The position numbers and the translations under genes are program-made. This document shows, in pieces, positions 610 through 19,900 of a stretch of DNA of 64,000 nt; positions within the stretch are counted from its first letter, which is position 1; each line of letters begins with the position of its first letter. Under the pieces are notes generated by a model that was given only the letters and a program-made list of their open reading frames with translations, did not search any database and had not been told where the DNA came from. Origin of the DNA: Dongia deserti (GTDB lineage: Bacteria; Pseudomonadota; Alphaproteobacteria; Dongiales; Dongiaceae); assembly GCF_003574735.1 (NCBI RefSeq), contig NZ_QORW01000011.1, positions 62,001 to 126,000 of the forward strand, given 5' to 3'.

Positions 610-1436
610 GCGAGACCTTCGATCTGGACTCCTACTTTGCGCGCATCCGCTATGACGGGCCGCGTACGCCGAGCCTGGATACGTTGCGCGCGATCCAGCT
701 GCTGCATCCGCAGGCGATCGCGTTTGAGAACCTCAATCCGCTGCTGGGCATGCCTGTTGCGCTCGACCTGGAGTCTTTGCAGCAGAAGTTGATCCGCTCG
801 CGGCGCGGCGGCTATTGCTTCGAGCACAATGGCGTGTTGCTCCATGCCCTGCGCGCGCTGGGCTTTCGCGTCACCGGACTTGCTGCGCGGGTGGTGTGGA
901 ACCAGCCGAACGACATGATGCCGCCGCGCAGCCACATGGTGCTGCGGGTCGTGTTGGAGGAAGGCATCTATCTCGCCGACGTCGGATTCGGCATGAGCCC
1001 CACCGCGCCGCTGCGCCTCGAGCCTGAGATCGAGCAGCAGACGCCCCACGAACCGTTTCGCCTGCTGCAGGGCGACGGCCACTTCACCTTGCAATGCAAG
1101 CTGAAGGACGAGTGGACCTCGTTCTATCGCTTCGATCTGCAAGAGCAGGCGCTGATCGACTATCAGGTCGCCAACTACTACGTCTCGACCTGGCCGACAT
1201 CGCATTTCGTGCAATCGCTGATCGCCGCGCGCGCGACGCCGGAGGGGCGCTATGGCTTGCGCAACAACCGCCTGTCGCTGCATCGGATGGGAGGCGAGAG
1301 CGAGCAACGCATCCTGAACAGCGCGGAGGAGGTCTGCGCCGCCCTGCATGACGTGTTCGGAATCGTGGTGCCGGATGAACGCGCCTTCGCCGCCGCGCTG
1401 GCGCGGCTCAACTGGCCGGACTTCTCCGCCAATTGA
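606..1436 (+). CDS. nat: Arylamine N-acetyltransferase
   Basis: This 276-residue protein transfers acetyl from acetyl-CoA to arylamines, hydrazines or hydroxylamines. All three catalytic residues are visible: Cys71 in RGGYCFEHN, His110 in PRSHMVL and Asp125 in LADVGFG. FENLNPLLG near residues 40-48 is also typical. The length is normal for bacterial NATs. The start overlaps the HxlR gene by ATGA, suggesting an operon in which the regulator senses aromatic or electrophilic compounds (inference). Confidence 0.95.
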   Translation: MSETFDLDSYFARIRYDGPRTPSLDTLRAIQLLHPQAIAFENLNPLLGMPVALDLESLQQKLIRSRRGGYCFEHNGVLLHALRALGFRVTGLAARVVWNQPNDMMPPRSHMVLRVVLEEGIYLADVGFGMSPTAPLRLEPEIEQQTPHEPFRLLQGDGHFTLQCKLKDEWTSFYRFDLQEQALIDYQVANYYVSTWPTSHFVQSLIAARATPEGRYGLRNNRLSLHRMGGESEQRILNSAEEVCAALHDVFGIVVPDERAFAAALARLNWPDFSAN

Positions 1437-11435: not shown

Positions 11436-12626
11436 ATGGCTGCAGAAGCCATGGAAGTGCAGCAGCTCCTGCAGTTGGCGCGGGAGAAATCGGAGCAGGC
11501 GCGGTCGCATCTCTTCGAGGTGATGGGCGACCTGTTCCAAGAGCAGGCCGCGGTCCTGAGCGCGCAAGAACGCGCGCTGATGGTCGACATCCTCGAAAAG
11601 CTGGTCCGCGAAGTCTCCCACGACATCCGCCTCAAGCTCTCCCATCGGCTCGCCGATCTGCCCGGAACGCCGCGCGAGCTCGCCATCCTGCTGGCCAACG
11701 ATGAGATCGACATCGCCTCGCCCATCCTGATGCGCTCCCGCGCGCTGCAGGACGCGGATCTGATCGAGATCATCCATCACCGCTCGCGCCAGCACATCCT
11801 GGCCGTCGCCATGCGGCGCGATCTCTCCATGTCGGTCAGCGACGTGCTGGTCGAGACCGGCCACAGCGACGTGATCATGGCCCTGCTCAACAACCAGGAA
11901 GCCACGATCTCGGAAAAGACCATGGCCTATCTTGTCGACCAGTCGAAGCATATCGACGAGTTCCAGGAGCCTCTGGTCCATCGCCGCGACCTGCCGCGCG
12001 ATCTGGCGGTCAAGATGTGCTACTGGGTCTCCGCCGCGATCCGCCAATTCATCGTGGAGAAGTTCCAGGTCGACGCAAACGAGCTCGACGACACGATCGA
12101 GCCCATACTCCAAGAACAGGTGGAAGCGACCAAGGCCGAAACGCCGTCGCCCGAAGCGCTGACGCCAGCCGAAGAGGCCGCGCGCGCGATCAAGGAAAGC
12201 GGCAAGCTGACCGCGCGGCTGATGATCCAGACCCTGCGCCGCGGCGAAGTGCCGATGTTCGAAGCCATGTTCGCGCAGGCCTCGGAGCTGCGCCTCGGCC
12301 TGGTGCATCGGCTGCTGTATGAAGTGGGCGGCAACGGCATCGCGGTGATCGCGCGCGCCTTGCGCCTGTCGCGCGAGGAATTCGCCACCATCTATCTGCT
12401 GACGCGCCGCGCGCGCCCGGGCCTGGGTGGCGGCGCGGTCGACTTGGGCCGGGCGCTGGGCTTCTACGACAAGGTCGCGACCGACGCGGCTATGAAGGTT
12501 CTGGAGCGCTGGCGGCGCGATCCACAATATCTCTATGCCATCAAGACTATCGAGCAAGGCGGAAGCCGGCCAGGCGGGGGCGCCGATTTCTTGGGCCCGA
12601 CTTCCGAAGGGGACGGGACGCAATGA
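11436..12626 (+). CDS. DUF2336 domain-containing protein
   Basis: The 396-residue, largely helical, soluble protein begins MAAEAMEVQQLLQLAREK. ATG 11436 is preferred over the in-frame TTG at 11421 because GGGGAG is placed correctly for it. Repeated HEAT-like helices are visible: REVSHDIRLKLSHRLADL, LPRDLAVKMCYWVSAAIR and a second related half after an acidic linker near 235-250. DUF2336 proteins are common in Alphaproteobacteria and have no settled function. The 4-base overlap with the PAS kinase suggests the two proteins act together. Confidence 0.8.
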   Translation: MAAEAMEVQQLLQLAREKSEQARSHLFEVMGDLFQEQAAVLSAQERALMVDILEKLVREVSHDIRLKLSHRLADLPGTPRELAILLANDEIDIASPILMRSRALQDADLIEIIHHRSRQHILAVAMRRDLSMSVSDVLVETGHSDVIMALLNNQEATISEKTMAYLVDQSKHIDEFQEPLVHRRDLPRDLAVKMCYWVSAAIRQFIVEKFQVDANELDDTIEPILQEQVEATKAETPSPEALTPAEEAARAIKESGKLTARLMIQTLRRGEVPMFEAMFAQASELRLGLVHRLLYEVGGNGIAVIARALRLSREEFATIYLLTRRARPGLGGGAVDLGRALGFYDKVATDAAMKVLERWRRDPQYLYAIKTIEQGGSRPGGGADFLGPTSEGDGTQ

Positions 12627-14167
12627 TGCAGGCATCGATGATCGTCAGCGACTGGCAACCGGAGATCGGCCGGTCGCCGACACCGGAGCAGTTACGCGAC
12701 ATATTCCAGAAGGAGCTGATGGATCTCGGTCCGGCCTTGTTCCTCGCGGACAAGACCGGGGCGATCCGGTGGTGCAACTCAGGCTATCGGCGCGTTGCCG
12801 AGGTGCAGACGGAAGATGGCCGCATCGGCGACCTGCTGCCGTTGCGCCAGGTGGCGGAGGAGATCGAATACAGCCGCAGCACCGTCTATCGCGAGGACCG
12901 CTACATTATCGGCCAGACCACGCAGATCCTGAAGTCGCGCATGGTGCCGGTGTTCGACAATGACGGCGCCTTGAACGGCTTCGGCGGCATCCTGCAGATG
13001 TTCGCCGACCATGGCATCGGGACCGAAGACATCGCCCAGATGCTCGACCGCTACATGGACTTCCTGCGCCTGACCGCCGACTGGGTGTGGGAATCCGACG
13101 CCAACCTCAACTTCACCATGGTCTCGCAGCGCATCACCAATGCGCTCGACCGCCCGCCGCAGGACTATATCGGCAAGAACCTCCTGAACATGATGGTGAC
13201 GGACACGCTGCGCCAGGTGGCCAAGCGCCGATTCGAGCGCATGTCGCCGTTCCGCGACGTGCCGTTCGACGCGATCGACGGCGAAGGCAAACGGCGACTA
13301 TTCATGCTGTCGGCCGTGCCGGTGTTCGACCGGGCGAACGGCACGCTCAAGGGCTATCGCGGCGCCGCGACCGACATCACCGAATTGACCAAGCGCGAGG
13401 AAAGCCTGCGCATGGCGAAGGAGCAGGCGGACGTCGCCAGCCGTGCCAAGACCCATTTCCTTGCCAACATGAGTCACGAGCTGCGCACGCCCTTGAACGC
13501 CATCATCGGCTTCGCCGACGTGATGCGCATGGAAATGATCGGGCCGGTCAGCAACCCGCAATACAAGTCCTACATCCGCGACATCCACGGCAGCGCGCTG
13601 CACCTGCTCGGCATCATCAACGACATCCTTGATGTCTCGCGTATCGAGGCGGGCAAGGTGACGTTGCATGAGAGCGTGGTCAGCGTGGACGAAATCGTGG
13701 AGTCGGTGGTGCGCCTGGTAAAGGAACGCGTGACCGACAGCCAGCTCTCTCTCGATCTCGACGTCGCGGCCAAGCTGCCGCGCGTCCACGCCGACAAGCA
13801 GAAGCTGAAACAGATCCTGATCAATCTCATCGGCAACGCCATCAAGTTCACGCCCAAGCACGGCCGCATTACCGTCGGCGCGCGCCTCTCTGCCCATGGC
13901 GAACTGGAGCTCAGCGTGGCCGACAACGGCATCGGTATCAGCCAAGAGAACATCGACCGGGTGCTGGAGCCGTTCGTGCAGGTCGATTCCGCTCTGCACC
14001 GCAAGTTCGACGGTGCCGGCCTCGGCCTGCCGCTGTCCCGCGGCCTCGCGCGCCTGCATGGCGGCGAGCTTCGCCTCGAAAGCGCGCCGGGCAAAGGCAC
14101 GCGCGCCATCATCACGCTACCGGCCTCGCGCCTGCTCGACGGCAAGCACCTGGCGGCGGTGCGGTAG
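12623..14167 (+). CDS. PAS-domain sensor histidine kinase
   Basis: This 514-residue soluble kinase has two PAS-like domains (about 30-130 and 140-255) and no clear membrane helix. The second one ends in the PAC-like GYRGAATDITELTKREESL. The H-box [17 protein letters not shown] contains His285. The ATPase motifs are N-box QILINLIGNAIKFTP, G1 VADNGIGIS and G2 GAGLGLPLSRGLARLHGG. The sequence resembles PleC/DivJ-class kinases of Alphaproteobacteria. There is no receiver domain and no adjacent response regulator, so the partner is elsewhere. It is translationally coupled to the DUF2336 gene. Confidence 0.92.
   Translation: MMQASMIVSDWQPEIGRSPTPEQLRDIFQKELMDLGPALFLADKTGAIRWCNSGYRRVAEVQTEDGRIGDLLPLRQVAEEIEYSRSTVYREDRYIIGQTTQILKSRMVPVFDNDGALNGFGGILQMFADHGIGTEDIAQMLDRYMDFLRLTADWVWESDANLNFTMVSQRITNALDRPPQDYIGKNLLNMMVTDTLRQVAKRRFERMSPFRDVPFDAIDGEGKRRLFMLSAVPVFDRANGTLKGYRGAATDITELTKREESLRMAKEQADVASRAKTHFLANMSHELRTPLNAIIGFADVMRMEMIGPVSNPQYKSYIRDIHGSALHLLGIINDILDVSRIEAGKVTLHESVVSVDEIVESVVRLVKERVTDSQLSLDLDVAAKLPRVHADKQKLKQILINLIGNAIKFTPKHGRITVGARLSAHGELELSVADNGIGISQENIDRVLEPFVQVDSALHRKFDGAGLGLPLSRGLARLHGGELRLESAPGKGTRAIITLPASRLLDGKHLAAVR

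Positions 14168-14243: not shown

Positions 14244-14244
<1 letters not shown>
14180..14244. repeat. Imperfect inverted repeat between convergent kinase genes
   Basis: Bases 14180-14200 (ATCAGATGTCGGATGTCAGAT) are nearly complementary to 14224-14244, with 16 or 17 of 21 positions pairing and a 23-base loop. The arms also contain short direct repeats of CAGAT and TGTC. It lies between the convergent ends of the two kinase genes and may act as a two-way terminator, though the T-run is weak. Confidence 0.55.
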
Positions 14245-15806
<1,562 letters not shown>

Positions 15807-15985
15807 GAAACGATTCAGCCTCATTCGAATGAAAGAAGCGTAAATATGGCTATTTCATTCGGATGTACCTGCCGAGATTCGGTGCTCTCTGACACCAGAA
15901 TGTAAGGGCAAGACGGCTCCGTATCGCGAGAGTTGCTTCGGCTTCTTGCGCTCCGGCATTTGTCTAAAATTGTCGGCTCCTCGAG
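15807..15985. other. Upstream region of the MHYT kinase
   Basis: This stretch contains the presumed promoter of the MHYT kinase on the minus strand. It includes an AT-rich part at 15840-15905 and no supportable gene. With the pseudogene block beyond it, 650 bases lack an intact gene. Confidence 0.4.
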
Positions 15986-16348: not shown

Positions 16349-16457
16349 GGAAGCACAGCGAAGGCGTTGGGCTGCGCGGCGCCCTCATCACGTGGGCGGC
16401 GAACCATAGCAGCGCCTTCGGCTTGATCCAAACCGCCGCCCCGGGCCAAATAGCCGG

Positions 16458-16799
16458 ATGACCGAATCCAATCCGGCCCGCGTGGCGCGCTTCAAGATCG
16501 GCGACGTGGTGCGCCACAGGATCTATCCGTTCCGGGGCGTGGTCTACGACGTGGATCCGGTCTTCAACAACACCGAGGAATGGCTGGCCTCGATTCCCGA
16601 GGAGATCCGGCCGCACAGGGACCAGCCCTTTTATCACCTGCTGGCCGAGAACGACCGCACCACCTATGTTGCCTATGTCTCGGAGCAGAACCTGCTGCCG
16701 GACGACACGGGTAAACCCTGTCGCCACCCGATGGTGCCGGAGATGTTCGAGGGGCCGATCGCGGGTGTCTACCGGCTGAAATCCATCAAGCCCAACTGA
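16458..16799 (+). CDS. hspQ: Heat shock protein HspQ (YccV-like, hemimethylated-DNA-binding family)
   Basis: The 113-residue protein carries the complete HspQ/YccV fold: FKIGDVVRHRIYPFRGVVYD, VDPVFNNTEEWLASIP, QPFYHLLAENDRTTYVAYVS and EQNLLPDDTGKPCRHP. In Escherichia coli HspQ is a specificity factor for Lon and was first described as binding hemimethylated oriC DNA (established). The ATG at 16458 is weakly supported by its upstream sequence. No heat-shock promoter is obvious. It has no functional link to the remnants upstream. Confidence 0.93.
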   Translation: MTESNPARVARFKIGDVVRHRIYPFRGVVYDVDPVFNNTEEWLASIPEEIRPHRDQPFYHLLAENDRTTYVAYVSEQNLLPDDTGKPCRHPMVPEMFEGPIAGVYRLKSIKPN

Positions 16800-16823
16800 G
16801 CCGGCTATCTCCTACATTCCCGC

Positions 16824-16858
16824 TTGACTTGGCCCAAGTTTCGGAACATAAAAAGAAC
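16824..16858 (+). promoter_or_regulatory. SOS promoter: LexA box over the -10 of a sigma70-type promoter
   Basis: GAAC-N7-GAAC is exact at 16844-16858 (GAACATAAAAAGAAC). This is the complement of the GTTC-N7-GTTC direct repeat bound by alphaproteobacterial LexA (established). A TTGACT -35 hexamer is at 16824-16829, and 17 bases later CATAAA at 16847-16852 serves as -10, so bound LexA would block polymerase. The next start, ATG 16887, follows AGGAG. Confidence 0.8.
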
Positions 16859-16886
16859 AAAGAGCGATCAAACAGGAGACACGGCC

Positions 16887-16979
16887 ATGCTCAACTATGC
16901 CTCTCATGTCCTGGAAGGCGCCGCCTTTGCCGCCATCATGCTGCTGATTGCAATCTCGCCGGGCCTTCTGGCCAGCTGA
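16887..16979 (+). CDS. 30-residue LexA-controlled single-helix membrane peptide
   Basis: The predicted peptide has one hydrophobic helix over residues 11-28 (GAAFAAIMLLIAISPGLLA) after a short polar start MLNYASHVLE. The ATG at 16887 has AGGAGAC placed about 8 bases upstream, and an exact LexA box lies 29 bases before it. In Caulobacter the LexA-controlled SidA is a 29-residue membrane peptide that stops division through FtsW/FtsN (established). Size, topology and control match, but sequence homology was not tested. A non-coding leader is the alternative. Confidence 0.6.
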   Translation: MLNYASHVLEGAAFAAIMLLIAISPGLLAS

Positions 16980-16987
16980 GGCTTTCC

Positions 16988-17197
16988 ATGTTCCTGATCG
17001 ACCGCCCCGCCCTCTCGCCCAACCTGCGTGCGGACCTTGCGCCGCGGCAGCTGTTCGGCAGCACGGGTGATGTCGTTCGTGCGGCCCTGGTGGCGCGTCC
17101 TCCAGTGACGGACCCAGCGGCACCAATCCAGCGTCACCCCAACCGCCAATTCGACTTCACCGTCACGGCGCCGACGTGGCGGCGCAAAGCGGTCTAG
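16988..17197 (+). CDS. 69-residue hypothetical protein, second gene of the putative SOS operon
   Basis: The ATG at 16988 lies 8 bases after the stop of the 30-residue peptide, and GAGG around that stop is well placed as its ribosome site, so the two would be coupled. The product starts MFLIDRPALSPNLRADLAPR, is rich in Pro, Arg and Ala, and ends PTWRRKAV. No membrane helix and no known domain are visible. No function is proposed beyond likely SOS co-expression. Confidence 0.45.
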   Translation: MFLIDRPALSPNLRADLAPRQLFGSTGDVVRAALVARPPVTDPAAPIQRHPNRQFDFTVTAPTWRRKAV

Positions 17198-17391
17198 CGG
17201 CAACCGACACCACCCATCACGTGTTGTTATCCGGCGGTGGACCGCAGGCGTTGTCCCGTGTCTCTGCGGGCCTGTGAATCAGGTTCGCGGCGGGTGCGGC
17301 CGAGCAGCGTCAGAGGAGCACGGTCGTCCGGTCTGCCTGCAAGTGCGCTCCCTATCCCATCGACTCGCGTTCAGAGCAAGGGAGTGTTCGC

Positions 17392-18582
17392 GTGCCGCTG
17401 TCCACCATCCGGGACTTTTTGCGTCGTGAGTCGGCGGGCGGCTTCGCTCTGCTCGGCGCGGCTTTGCTGGCGCTTGCACTCACCAACTCGCCGCTGGCCG
17501 GCCTCTATCACGATTTCTTCGCGCTGCATCTGACCGTCAAGCTGGGCGATGTCGGGTTCGACAAGTCGCTCAACTACTGGATCAACGACGGTCTGATGGC
17601 GATCTTCTTTTTCCTGGTCGGACTCGAGATCAAGCGCGAGCTCATCGAGGGTGAGTTGTCGAGCCCGACGCAGGCAGCGCTGCCCGCGATTGCTGCGATC
17701 GGCGGCATGGTGGCGCCCGCCGCGATATATGTCCTGGTCAACGCCGGCACGCCGGCGACGCTCGACGGCTGGGCCATTCCGGCGGCCACCGACATTGCCT
17801 TCGCGATGGGAGTACTCGGCCTGCTCAGCAACCGCGTGCCCGACAGCCTGAAGATATTTCTGCTGGCTCTTGCCATCATCGATGATCTCGGCGCCATCAT
17901 CATCATCGCCATCTTCTATACCGCGGATTTGTCGTTGCAGGCGCTTGGCCTGGCCTCGATTGGCGTCACGCTCCTTTTCGTTATGAACCGCCTGAACGTG
18001 CAGAGTCTCGCCGCCTATGTGCTGGTTGGATTCTATGTCTGGAGCTGCGTGCTGCAATCGGGGGTACATGCGACGCTAGCCGGTACTGTCGTCGCCCTAT
18101 TCGTGCCGCTGCGCGTACCGCGTGACGAAGATGAAGACTCCCTGCTAAAGCGCTGTATCGACGGCCTGCATCCGTGGGTAGCCTTCGGGATCGTACCGGT
18201 GTTCGCGTTTGCCAATGCCGGCGTGTCCCTGGACGGCGTCACTTGGGAAACGATCGTGGCGCCTGTCACGTTGGGCGTGGCGCTTGGACTCTTCATCGGC
18301 AAGCAGGCCGGCGTGATGGCTGCAATCGCGTTGGCGCACGTCACGCGGGTGGCGCACCTGCCGCAGGGCACGACCTGGAGGGAGGCTTACGGTGTCGCGG
18401 TCCTGACCGGCATCGGCTTCACGATGAGTCTCTTCATCGGCGGGCTTGCGTTTCGCAAGCTGGATCACATCGTGGAGATGCGCCTCGGCGTGATCGCCGG
18501 CTCGATCCTCTCGGCGGCCGCAGGACTGCTTGTGCTGATGTGGGCGACGCGGCACCGAACGGCGGAGGCAGCGACTCAATAG
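17392..18582 (+). CDS. nhaA: Na+/H+ antiporter NhaA
   Basis: The 396-residue inner-membrane antiporter exchanges Na+ (or Li+) for protons. The paired aspartates that bind the ion are seen in LAIIDDLGAIIIIAIFYTAD (Asp164/165), with AATDIAFAMGVLGLL (Asp134) and the signature DGLMAIFFFLVGLEIKREL. Translation starts at GTG 17392 after AAGGGAG. The end overlaps the convergent serine protease by 7 bases. The 194 bases upstream, after the putative SOS operon, hold no other gene. Confidence 0.96.
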   Translation: MPLSTIRDFLRRESAGGFALLGAALLALALTNSPLAGLYHDFFALHLTVKLGDVGFDKSLNYWINDGLMAIFFFLVGLEIKRELIEGELSSPTQAALPAIAAIGGMVAPAAIYVLVNAGTPATLDGWAIPAATDIAFAMGVLGLLSNRVPDSLKIFLLALAIIDDLGAIIIIAIFYTADLSLQALGLASIGVTLLFVMNRLNVQSLAAYVLVGFYVWSCVLQSGVHATLAGTVVALFVPLRVPRDEDEDSLLKRCIDGLHPWVAFGIVPVFAFANAGVSLDGVTWETIVAPVTLGVALGLFIGKQAGVMAAIALAHVTRVAHLPQGTTWREAYGVAVLTGIGFTMSLFIGGLAFRKLDHIVEMRLGVIAGSILSAAAGLLVLMWATRHRTAEAATQ

Positions 18583-19694
18583 CGCCGCGCCGCCTTGCGG
18601 AAGGCCTCGATCGGGACGGCGGCGCCGAAACTGCGCCCGTCTTCCAGTGTCACGATGGCGCTCTGCAAGCCGATAATCTCCGCCCCGGCGGGCGTCACCA
18701 GCAGCAGCGGCGCGCCGGACGTGCCGTAAGTCGCATCGCAGTCATGCAGCAACAGATGCCCGTTTTCCACCTTGGCGATCAGCTGGCAGCCATGATGCTG
18801 GGTCAGGATCTCCGCATAGTCGCCGTTATAGCCGGCGATTGTCAGTTCGCCGTCCTCCACGGCCCTTTTCATCTGCTCGAATGACAAGCTGCTGAGCTCC
18901 ACCGGCTGTATGGCGAGGCTGCGTTCCAGCTCCACGAGGGCCCAGTCATTGCCGATGTTCGATTCGTCCTTCGCATCCCCGGGCTTCCATTTGGGCGAGA
19001 TGGTGAAGTCCCGCCCCTTGGCGTGGGCCCGATACGCACCGCGGTGATAGCCGGCGACGAAATGCACCTCCATCGGGATGGTCCAGCGCTGGTCCCTGAA
19101 ATTGTAGAGGCAGTGCGCCGCCGTCAGGACCAGGTTCGGCGCGATCAGGGCGCCGGTGCAATGGCCGCCGATTTCGCGGTTGATGCGGCCGAGCGCAATC
19201 CACGGCCACGTCTCATTGTCGATGGGCGTGCGGTCGTCCGCGCCTTCGATGCCGATGATCGTGCTCTTGGCCTCGTCGGCCCGCACGATGCCGGCCAGCA
19301 GCATCAGCGCAAGAACCGCCAGCGCAAATCCGACCGCCAGCGCCTGGATGCCGGTCCGGCTGGAGCGCCGGCGCCGCTGCTGCCGGCGCATCATCCGGTC
19401 CTGGGCCCGGCGCTGCGGCCCGCGGCTGTCGGCGCCGGCCAGAACGACGCCATAGAACTTCTTTCCGCCGAGGGAGGCGGGCAGGCTGAAGCGCCAATCT
19501 ACGCTGTGTTGGCGGGGGGCCGCAGCGGCGGCGGCGCGTTTGATATCGTCCAGTTGCGCAGGGGAGAGGCCGGATTTCGTTTCCGGCGAGAGCCGCGCAA
19601 GAAACAGATCGCCCCACAATTCTGCATCCCGCCGGTCCGCGGGCGCGGCGCCGTTCCCGGTGTTGCCGCGCGTGGTCTTTCCGCCTGTCGCCAT
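18576..19694 (-). CDS. Membrane-anchored trypsin-like serine protease with N-terminal cytoplasmic domain
   Basis: The 372-residue protein starts at ATG 19692-19694 (MATGGKTTRG). Residues 1-112 are a soluble region with LSPAQLDDIKRAAAAA and FSLPASLGGKKFYGVVLAG, ending in a run of arginines. One membrane helix spans about 115-137. A periplasmic S1-type protease follows with a complete triad: His194 (TAAHCLYN), Asp250 (IGNDWALVEL) and Ser326 (ATYGTSGAPL). The arginine-rich flank predicts the N-terminus stays inside. The substrate is unknown. The gene overlaps nhaA tail-to-tail by 7 bases. Confidence 0.85.
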   Translation of the reverse strand: MATGGKTTRGNTGNGAAPADRRDAELWGDLFLARLSPETKSGLSPAQLDDIKRAAAAAAPRQHSVDWRFSLPASLGGKKFYGVVLAGADSRGPQRRAQDRMMRRQQRRRRSSRTGIQALAVGFALAVLALMLLAGIVRADEAKSTIIGIEGADDRTPIDNETWPWIALGRINREIGGHCTGALIAPNLVLTAAHCLYNFRDQRWTIPMEVHFVAGYHRGAYRAHAKGRDFTISPKWKPGDAKDESNIGNDWALVELERSLAIQPVELSSLSFEQMKRAVEDGELTIAGYNGDYAEILTQHHGCQLIAKVENGHLLLHDCDATYGTSGAPLLLVTPAGAEIIGLQSAIVTLEDGRSFGAAVPIEAFRKAARRY

Positions 19695-19900
19695 GCTCTC
19701 AGCAGTCCTTTGCACGGTGCCCCCACCGGCCGTTCGAGGCTAGCCGGTCGATTGTTAAGGAAGCGTGACCAACCCGTTGGTTTAACGCCGTTTTCGCCGT
19801 AGTCGCCTGGAATCCTCAGTTCTGTTGCGCTAGACTCGCCTTGCCCTCCCAGCACCGCTGCCGCTAGAGCACGGCCAAGTATTCCAAGATCAGGACAATC
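19695..19900. promoter_or_regulatory. Divergent promoter region between protease and glutamate dehydrogenase
   Basis: The 206-base gap separates divergent starts. It contains TTGTTAAGGAAGCG and GGTTTAACGCCG in its left part, but no promoter or operator stands out with confidence. Confidence 0.3.

Follow-up and report, generated by a model that had tools for sequence, protein, structure and literature searches.

Between hspQ and nhaA of Dongia deserti, in the 64,000-nucleotide stretch of DNA that was analysed as a whole (hereafter, the window), a frame of 30 residues lies directly behind a promoter overlapped by a predicted LexA box. The locus raises the question whether a gene of the damage response has gone unnoticed here and, if so, what its product may do in the damaged cell. 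To this end the parts of the locus, collected in Table 1, were compared with their counterparts in 17 genomes of the order (designated by G numbers; g1 to g7 are groups of these, g1 being the genus of the window) and in wider sets of genomes. Sequence comparison establishes the operator-promoter, the coding frame and the predicted helix; the peptide gene is an overlooked one, likely to encode a new damage-response peptide.

Table 1. Coordinates of the promoter elements, ribosome-binding sites and genes of the locus, as positions of the window
Feature	Position	Strand	Remarks
-35 hexamer TTGACT	16824-16829	+	read directly; 17-base spacing shared by all 12 orthologous promoters
-10 hexamer CATAAA	16847-16852	+	starts on the final C of the first GAAC; 17 bases from the -35
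Predicted LexA box GAACATAAAAAGAAC	16844-16858	+	GAAC-N7-GAAC; overlaps the -10 hexamer
Ribosome-binding site AGGAGA	16874-16879	+	upstream of the peptide ATG at 16887
Peptide gene, 30 residues	16887-16979	+	ATG 16887, stop 16977-16979 included; predicted single-helix membrane peptide
GAGG, probable coupled ribosome site of the second gene	16978-16981	+	overlaps the peptide stop codon
Second gene, 69 residues	16988-17197	+	ATG 16988, stop 17195-17197 included; basic, genus-specific
hspQ (YccV-like), upstream neighbour	16458-16799	+	PF08755 E 4e-29; TIGR02097 over cut-off
nhaA, Na+/H+ antiporter, downstream neighbour	17392-18582	+	PF06965 E 1e-143; TIGR00773 over cut-off

The promoter and its predicted LexA box

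A preliminary description of this DNA had reported an exact GAAC-N7-GAAC repeat over the -10 of a TTGACT-N17-CATAAA promoter, and direct reading finds both in place. The 6.13 Mb genome contains this repeat 124 times, versus 165 for the reversed control pattern, and the 64-kb window contains it three times, where the shuffle mean is 1.48 and 18 out of 100 shuffles reach three. As the genome shows no enrichment of GAAC-N7-GAAC, the motif count alone was rejected as evidence for a LexA box: the box at the peptide gene is significant because features of promoter, spacer and conservation are added to the pattern. Among the 100 sites listed of the 124, it is the only one with a 7-base spacer composed entirely of A/T, but a matrix built from the lexA boxes ranks it only joint fourth among the same 100. 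Searching for the box along with a -35 element, as TTGAC-N(4-15)-GAAC-N7-GAAC, resulted in 51 matches in the 17 genomes of the order, versus 11 with the pattern reversed; judged by their positions, 16 matches belong to lexA and 11 to the peptide gene. Four sites with this layout are found in the genome of the window, namely those at lexA, imuA (C4:9110), the peptide gene and C7:84527, and in relatives two further ones (L148 and L164) precede imuA or imuA-like frames. The remaining matches were read in part, and others among those looked unrelated.

One promoter-plus-box match in G015 (L140, C12:2629) stands before a 74-residue HicA-type toxin gene (1215-1436, minus strand; PF07927, E 1e-12). 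A toxin-antitoxin locus of this genome may be under LexA.

The lexA gene was found in 16 of the 17 genomes, all but G016, and is preceded in every case by an exact box, GAAC(C/T)AAA(A/C)TAGAAC, lying 81-172 bases upstream of the matched start. In the genome of the window, exact boxes also precede imuA (NF033429, E 9e-24, 84 bits, below the cut-off of 150) and a radical-SAM repair-type gene (TIGR03916, 553 bits, over cut-off). The exact-box rule is nevertheless incomplete, because only one of the 15 recA genes found (L123-L137) has such a box within 450 bases, and 14 do not. Thirteen of these 14 feature a one-mismatch GTTC-N7-GATC at 137-186 bases before the matched start, and a GAAC-N7-GTAC form lies upstream of 10 of the 14.

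The peptide promoters of the 12 carrier genomes share a rigid frame: all feature a -35 of the type TTGAC(T/A/G) with a 17-base spacer, and in all a GAAC that starts at offset 20, counted from the -35, touches the -10. A partner GAAC, exact and in the N7 register, is present in 11 of the 12, upstream of the first in seven genomes (offset 9) and downstream in four, those of g1 (offset 31), while in the twelfth, G014, a GAAT at offset 9 produces a one-mismatch GAAT-N7-GAAC. The two partner placements, 11 bases apart, thus put the box on either side of a fixed -10, an arrangement that is difficult to account for unless LexA control is under selection. LexA very probably controls the peptide gene, as judged from this comparison: with exact boxes at 16 out of 16 lexA genes and at 11 out of 12 peptide promoters, the LexA control proposed at the outset is well supported. 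A half-site that switched sides while the peptide was kept offers a clean case of regulatory-site turnover under constant control.

The peptide promoter of G009 (L087, L051) contains four GAAC half-sites, which pair twice at an exact N7 spacing and once at N9: in addition to the offset-9 pair, a further N7 pair lies downstream. This promoter may represent a halfway state of the box shift.

The peptide family and the second gene

A peptide of 28-33 residues with a single helix is found in 12 of the 17 genomes of the order, at E < 1e-6, the other five giving either no match or E >= 0.067. Carriers are all four genomes of g1, all seven of g6 and the only one of g7; the peptide is absent from g2, g3, g4 (two genomes) and g5. 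In 11 of the 17 genomes an exact box and a frame of 28-30 residues lie downstream of hspQ, and in G014 a 33-residue version with its one-mismatch box is located 3 kb from hspQ, ahead of nhaA. No exact box was found within 700 bases after hspQ in the five non-carriers (G004, G005, G006, G007 and G010). Stop codons or frame changes in the peptide frame behind a retained promoter were not seen in any of the 17 genomes, and the conservation of box and peptide frame, for which the preliminary description pointed to related genomes, was found in 12 of them, all keeping promoter and frame together.

In a FastTree tree of HspQ, LexA and RecA, where one of these proteins is missing for four genomes, the split between carriers and non-carriers has support 1.0, so that one gain or one loss explains the distribution of the peptide. 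Since the peptide is missing from five of the 17 genomes, the SOS response of the order does not generally depend on it. Wider searches at E <= 0.01 produced six matches in 387 genomes of the class and two in 397 of the phylum, all within the peptide family of the order; both sets are samples from larger groups, and Caulobacter may not be among them. A scan of named genomes returned three loci, which appear to be those of G002, G003 and G001, but says little on distribution, because one narrow pattern was used. A viral origin was also considered and rejected: the six stretches of viral contigs matching the pattern contained no relative of the peptide.

The ATG at 16887 is the earliest start preceded by a good ribosome site, and the orthologues also carry purine-rich sites ahead of their starts; a 51-residue frame with a TTG start contains the same 30-residue peptide. 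The 30-residue frame previously read behind the box is confirmed, and its single membrane helix is supported by hydropathy, predicted structure and orthologues. AlphaFold2, run on four sequences, predicts a helix over residues 2-29 with a mean pLDDT of 94 for the window peptide. The best 19-residue hydropathy is 2.0-2.2 in 10 of the 12 peptides (2.16 in that of the window), G009 and G014 having less hydrophobic helices (1.45 and 1.57, respectively). The hydrophobic moment is low, 0.03-0.24 in the 12 peptides, suggesting a conventional membrane-spanning helix and not an amphipathic one. Assuming transcription to start 7 bases after the -10, the leader measures about 25-33 nt in all 12 carriers; the predicted fold of the window leader has part of the ribosome site base-paired to the coding region.

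In an alignment of 11 peptides, from which G014 was left out, M1, E10, F14 and I21 are invariant and A13, M18, L20, P25 and L27 nearly so; none of the 11 matches any Pfam or NCBIfam family. Pairwise, uncorrected pN/pS values are 0.14-0.54 in the six pairs of the genus and 0.14-0.95 in the 15 pairs of six g6 genomes, one pair standing at 0.95. Differences fall at third codon positions in 81 cases out of 142 within the genus and in 148 out of 293 in the six g6 genomes.

The preliminary description had also assigned to the locus a second gene of 69 residues with a coupled ribosome site. The frame is indeed there, and GAGG is a probable coupled site, although not conserved letter for letter in G002 and G003; the two-gene layout, however, holds for this genus only, the eight other carriers showing no clear relative of the second gene. 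Within the genus, the gene is clear in G000, G002 and G003 and probable in G001. The protein is 66-69% identical in G002 and G003, its first 45 residues being better conserved than the remainder, and in three genomes pN/pS is 0.35-0.44 in frame versus 0.87-2.81 in the two other frames. The substitution patterns show purifying selection on the frames of both the peptide and the second gene. In G001, a 124-residue frame is called a probable relative because it lies at the same place and begins with the same four residues, MFLI, its matches to the second protein being short and weak (two, E 0.002 and 0.022 in a single comparison).

The second protein is basic (+5) and has no predicted membrane helix, the best 19-residue hydropathy being 0.77; its fold, predicted from three sequences, is of low confidence (pLDDT 57), and Pfam returned a chance match only (E 0.34). 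Beyond the genus, weak hits only were obtained in 61 genomes, and an extension of the gene beyond the genus was accordingly rejected. Among 289 genomes of the class, none outside the own genome matched at E <= 0.001, in a search which in many genomes scored only 15 of the first-look candidates.

Proposed function and alternative readings

By analogy, the following course of events may be proposed. In the undamaged cell, LexA bound to the box over the -10 would block the promoter, and upon damage RecA-triggered cleavage of LexA would free it. The peptide, translated from an mRNA whose leader is very short, would span the inner membrane once; in this genus, a second, soluble and basic protein would probably be made from the same message. 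Within the membrane, the helix might dock onto the late divisome (FtsW/FtsI/FtsN), in the manner reported for SidA of Caulobacter crescentus, and a reversible brake on cell division would be the outcome and the most likely job of the peptide. The whole chain, a LexA-repressed single-span peptide braking division, is plausible but tentative; its division target is a proposal, and the label of SOS division inhibitor, or SidA-like peptide, remains an analogy. A division target does not explain the antiporter neighbourhood described below, which counts against it.

A first alternative sees in the peptide a membrane toxin induced by SOS and comparable to TisB and DinQ, which would lower the membrane potential and lead damaged cells into dormancy. 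The position of the gene, adjoining that of an antiporter working on the proton gradient, speaks for this reading, but the helix, nearly uniformly apolar and of low moment, speaks against it. In type I toxins a long structured leader holds back translation: the leader length found here, given the assumed transcription start, does not fit, although the partial pairing of the ribosome site may provide some hold on translation. DinQ belongs to the same class of control and size, and its raised level results in depolarisation, but it is held back by antisense RNA and RNA processing (PMC3567139, in excerpt), whereas the leader here, with its start assumed, counts only about 25-33 nt. No Rfam family scored over cut-off in 16400-17500 (best match E 0.51), and no antisense RNA was recognised by Rfam search and promoter scan; the latter found neither strand of 16700-17500 to carry a sigma-70-like promoter, and also misses the promoter of the peptide itself. 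On this evidence a toxin appears unlikely.

Another alternative starts from the neighbourhood: the peptide might partner, or be co-expressed with, the adjacent Na+/H+ antiporter, DNA damage thereby altering sodium/proton exchange. Counting the next gene after the peptide, or after the second gene in g1, a Na+/H+ antiporter gene follows in 11 of the 12 carriers, of the nhaA type in seven (PF06965 in all) and of the nhaD type in four (PF03600 in all; NF038006 NhaD in the two scanned with NCBIfam). In G008 and G013 the gene order is hspQ-peptide-nhaD-nhaA, two unrelated antiporters lying behind the peptide (L168, 2367-4835, and L169, 3863-6481, respectively); nhaA after nhaD was read in these two genomes, the reading of G012 and G015 having ended before that point. 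Beyond nhaA, the window contains a trypsin-like gene on the other strand, followed by NAD-glutamate dehydrogenase. G006, which has no peptide, also has no nhaA between hspQ and the glutamate dehydrogenase gene, the gap holding only a 112-residue frame that matches the N-terminal part of the trypsin-like protein of the window (30% over 90 residues).

These observations favour the antiporter reading, as does the own genome, where no terminator-like site was found in 16700-17500, an interval spanning peptide to nhaA. In G013, however, a good terminator lies between peptide and nhaD, just after the peptide, so that co-transcription of peptide and antiporter is not general, and the notion of a general operon is weakened. 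Moreover, G002 keeps the peptide next to the gene of a UPF0114 membrane protein, with no nhaA there. The linkage of peptide and antiporter genes is real, but in the light of the tree it may be due to one shared event in the ancestor of the clade. A functional tie between the two is rather improbable. A literature search gave no paper linking nhaA to the SOS response and LexA via a small protein.

Some further features of the surroundings may be mentioned. The trypsin-like gene of the window (18576-19715, minus strand) has an extra N-terminal part; the counterparts of its two portions look like separate frames in G008 and G013. Upstream, the window contains two convergent sensor histidine kinase genes (12623-14167, plus strand, and 14244-15824, minus strand), one with PAS domains and one with MHYT repeats. 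A riboswitch before nhaA was rejected, no Rfam match being over cut-off in 16400-17500.

The two themes may also be combined, by supposing that peptide and nhaA entered or left the stretch between hspQ and glutamate dehydrogenase together and that the peptide tunes ion exchange or membrane energy in the SOS response; this reading, which also holds that the peptide stayed beside antiporters even where an unrelated NhaD was added, is distinctly doubtful. That a chance box stands before chance short frames, with no gene at all, is extremely improbable: the lack of enrichment of GAAC-N7-GAAC alone would suit it, but 12 genomes share the box with its spacing, the start and the frame, substitutions cluster at third codon positions, and promoter-plus-box matches number 51 versus 11.

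Comparison with known systems

Read as a putative brake on division, the peptide can be set beside several small membrane proteins induced by DNA damage. TisB of Escherichia coli, a LexA-controlled small membrane peptide as this one very probably is, has 29 residues; YneA, SosA and ChiZ are larger than the peptide described here. DinQ, also of E. coli, is likewise LexA-controlled, counts 27 residues with one membrane helix (PMC3567139, in excerpt), and differs in its RNA-level control, as discussed above. According to the same excerpt, DinQ is a counter-example to the assumption that an SOS-induced single-helix peptide must inhibit division (PMC3567139).

The SOS response also induces the membrane proteins YneA, SosA and ChiZ, whose presumed point of action is late division, but YneA and ChiZ carry a LysM domain (PMC13396833, in excerpt), missing from the peptide here. 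In the same partial source, SidA, SosA and ChiZ were modelled against TM7 of FtsW, like YneA, though not with high confidence, and YneA reduced to its membrane segment still reaches FtsW without blocking division (PMC13396833), which counts against a division brake here. DidA of Caulobacter crescentus, a damage-induced small division inhibitor of 71 residues, recalls the second protein, of 69, but is SOS-independent and has a membrane helix (PMC4211646, in excerpt), whereas the second protein has none.

The closest parallel by description is SidA, as portrayed in the available parts of two reports: an SOS-induced inner-membrane division inhibitor of 29 residues acting on FtsW (PMC4211646), under LexA control through a box of the GTTC-N7-GTTC type, whose deletion relieves the filamentation of a lexA mutant (PMC12700426). 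The predicted type of control, the size (28-33 residues here) and the one predicted helix are alike. In contrast to SidA, the peptide is linked to hspQ and to antiporter genes and, within this genus, is followed by a second small protein; no sequence relative of it was detected outside the order in the 387 class and 397 phylum genomes, and it is likened to SidA by description only. Since no relative was seen outside the order, it is not to be filed as a SidA homologue and, as far as sequence comparison goes, is most suitably classed as a new family of SOS-controlled single-helix peptides, seen to date in this order only. SOS-induced membrane peptides are known in few organisms and have little sequence in common: each independent family therefore helps to find the common features of their target.
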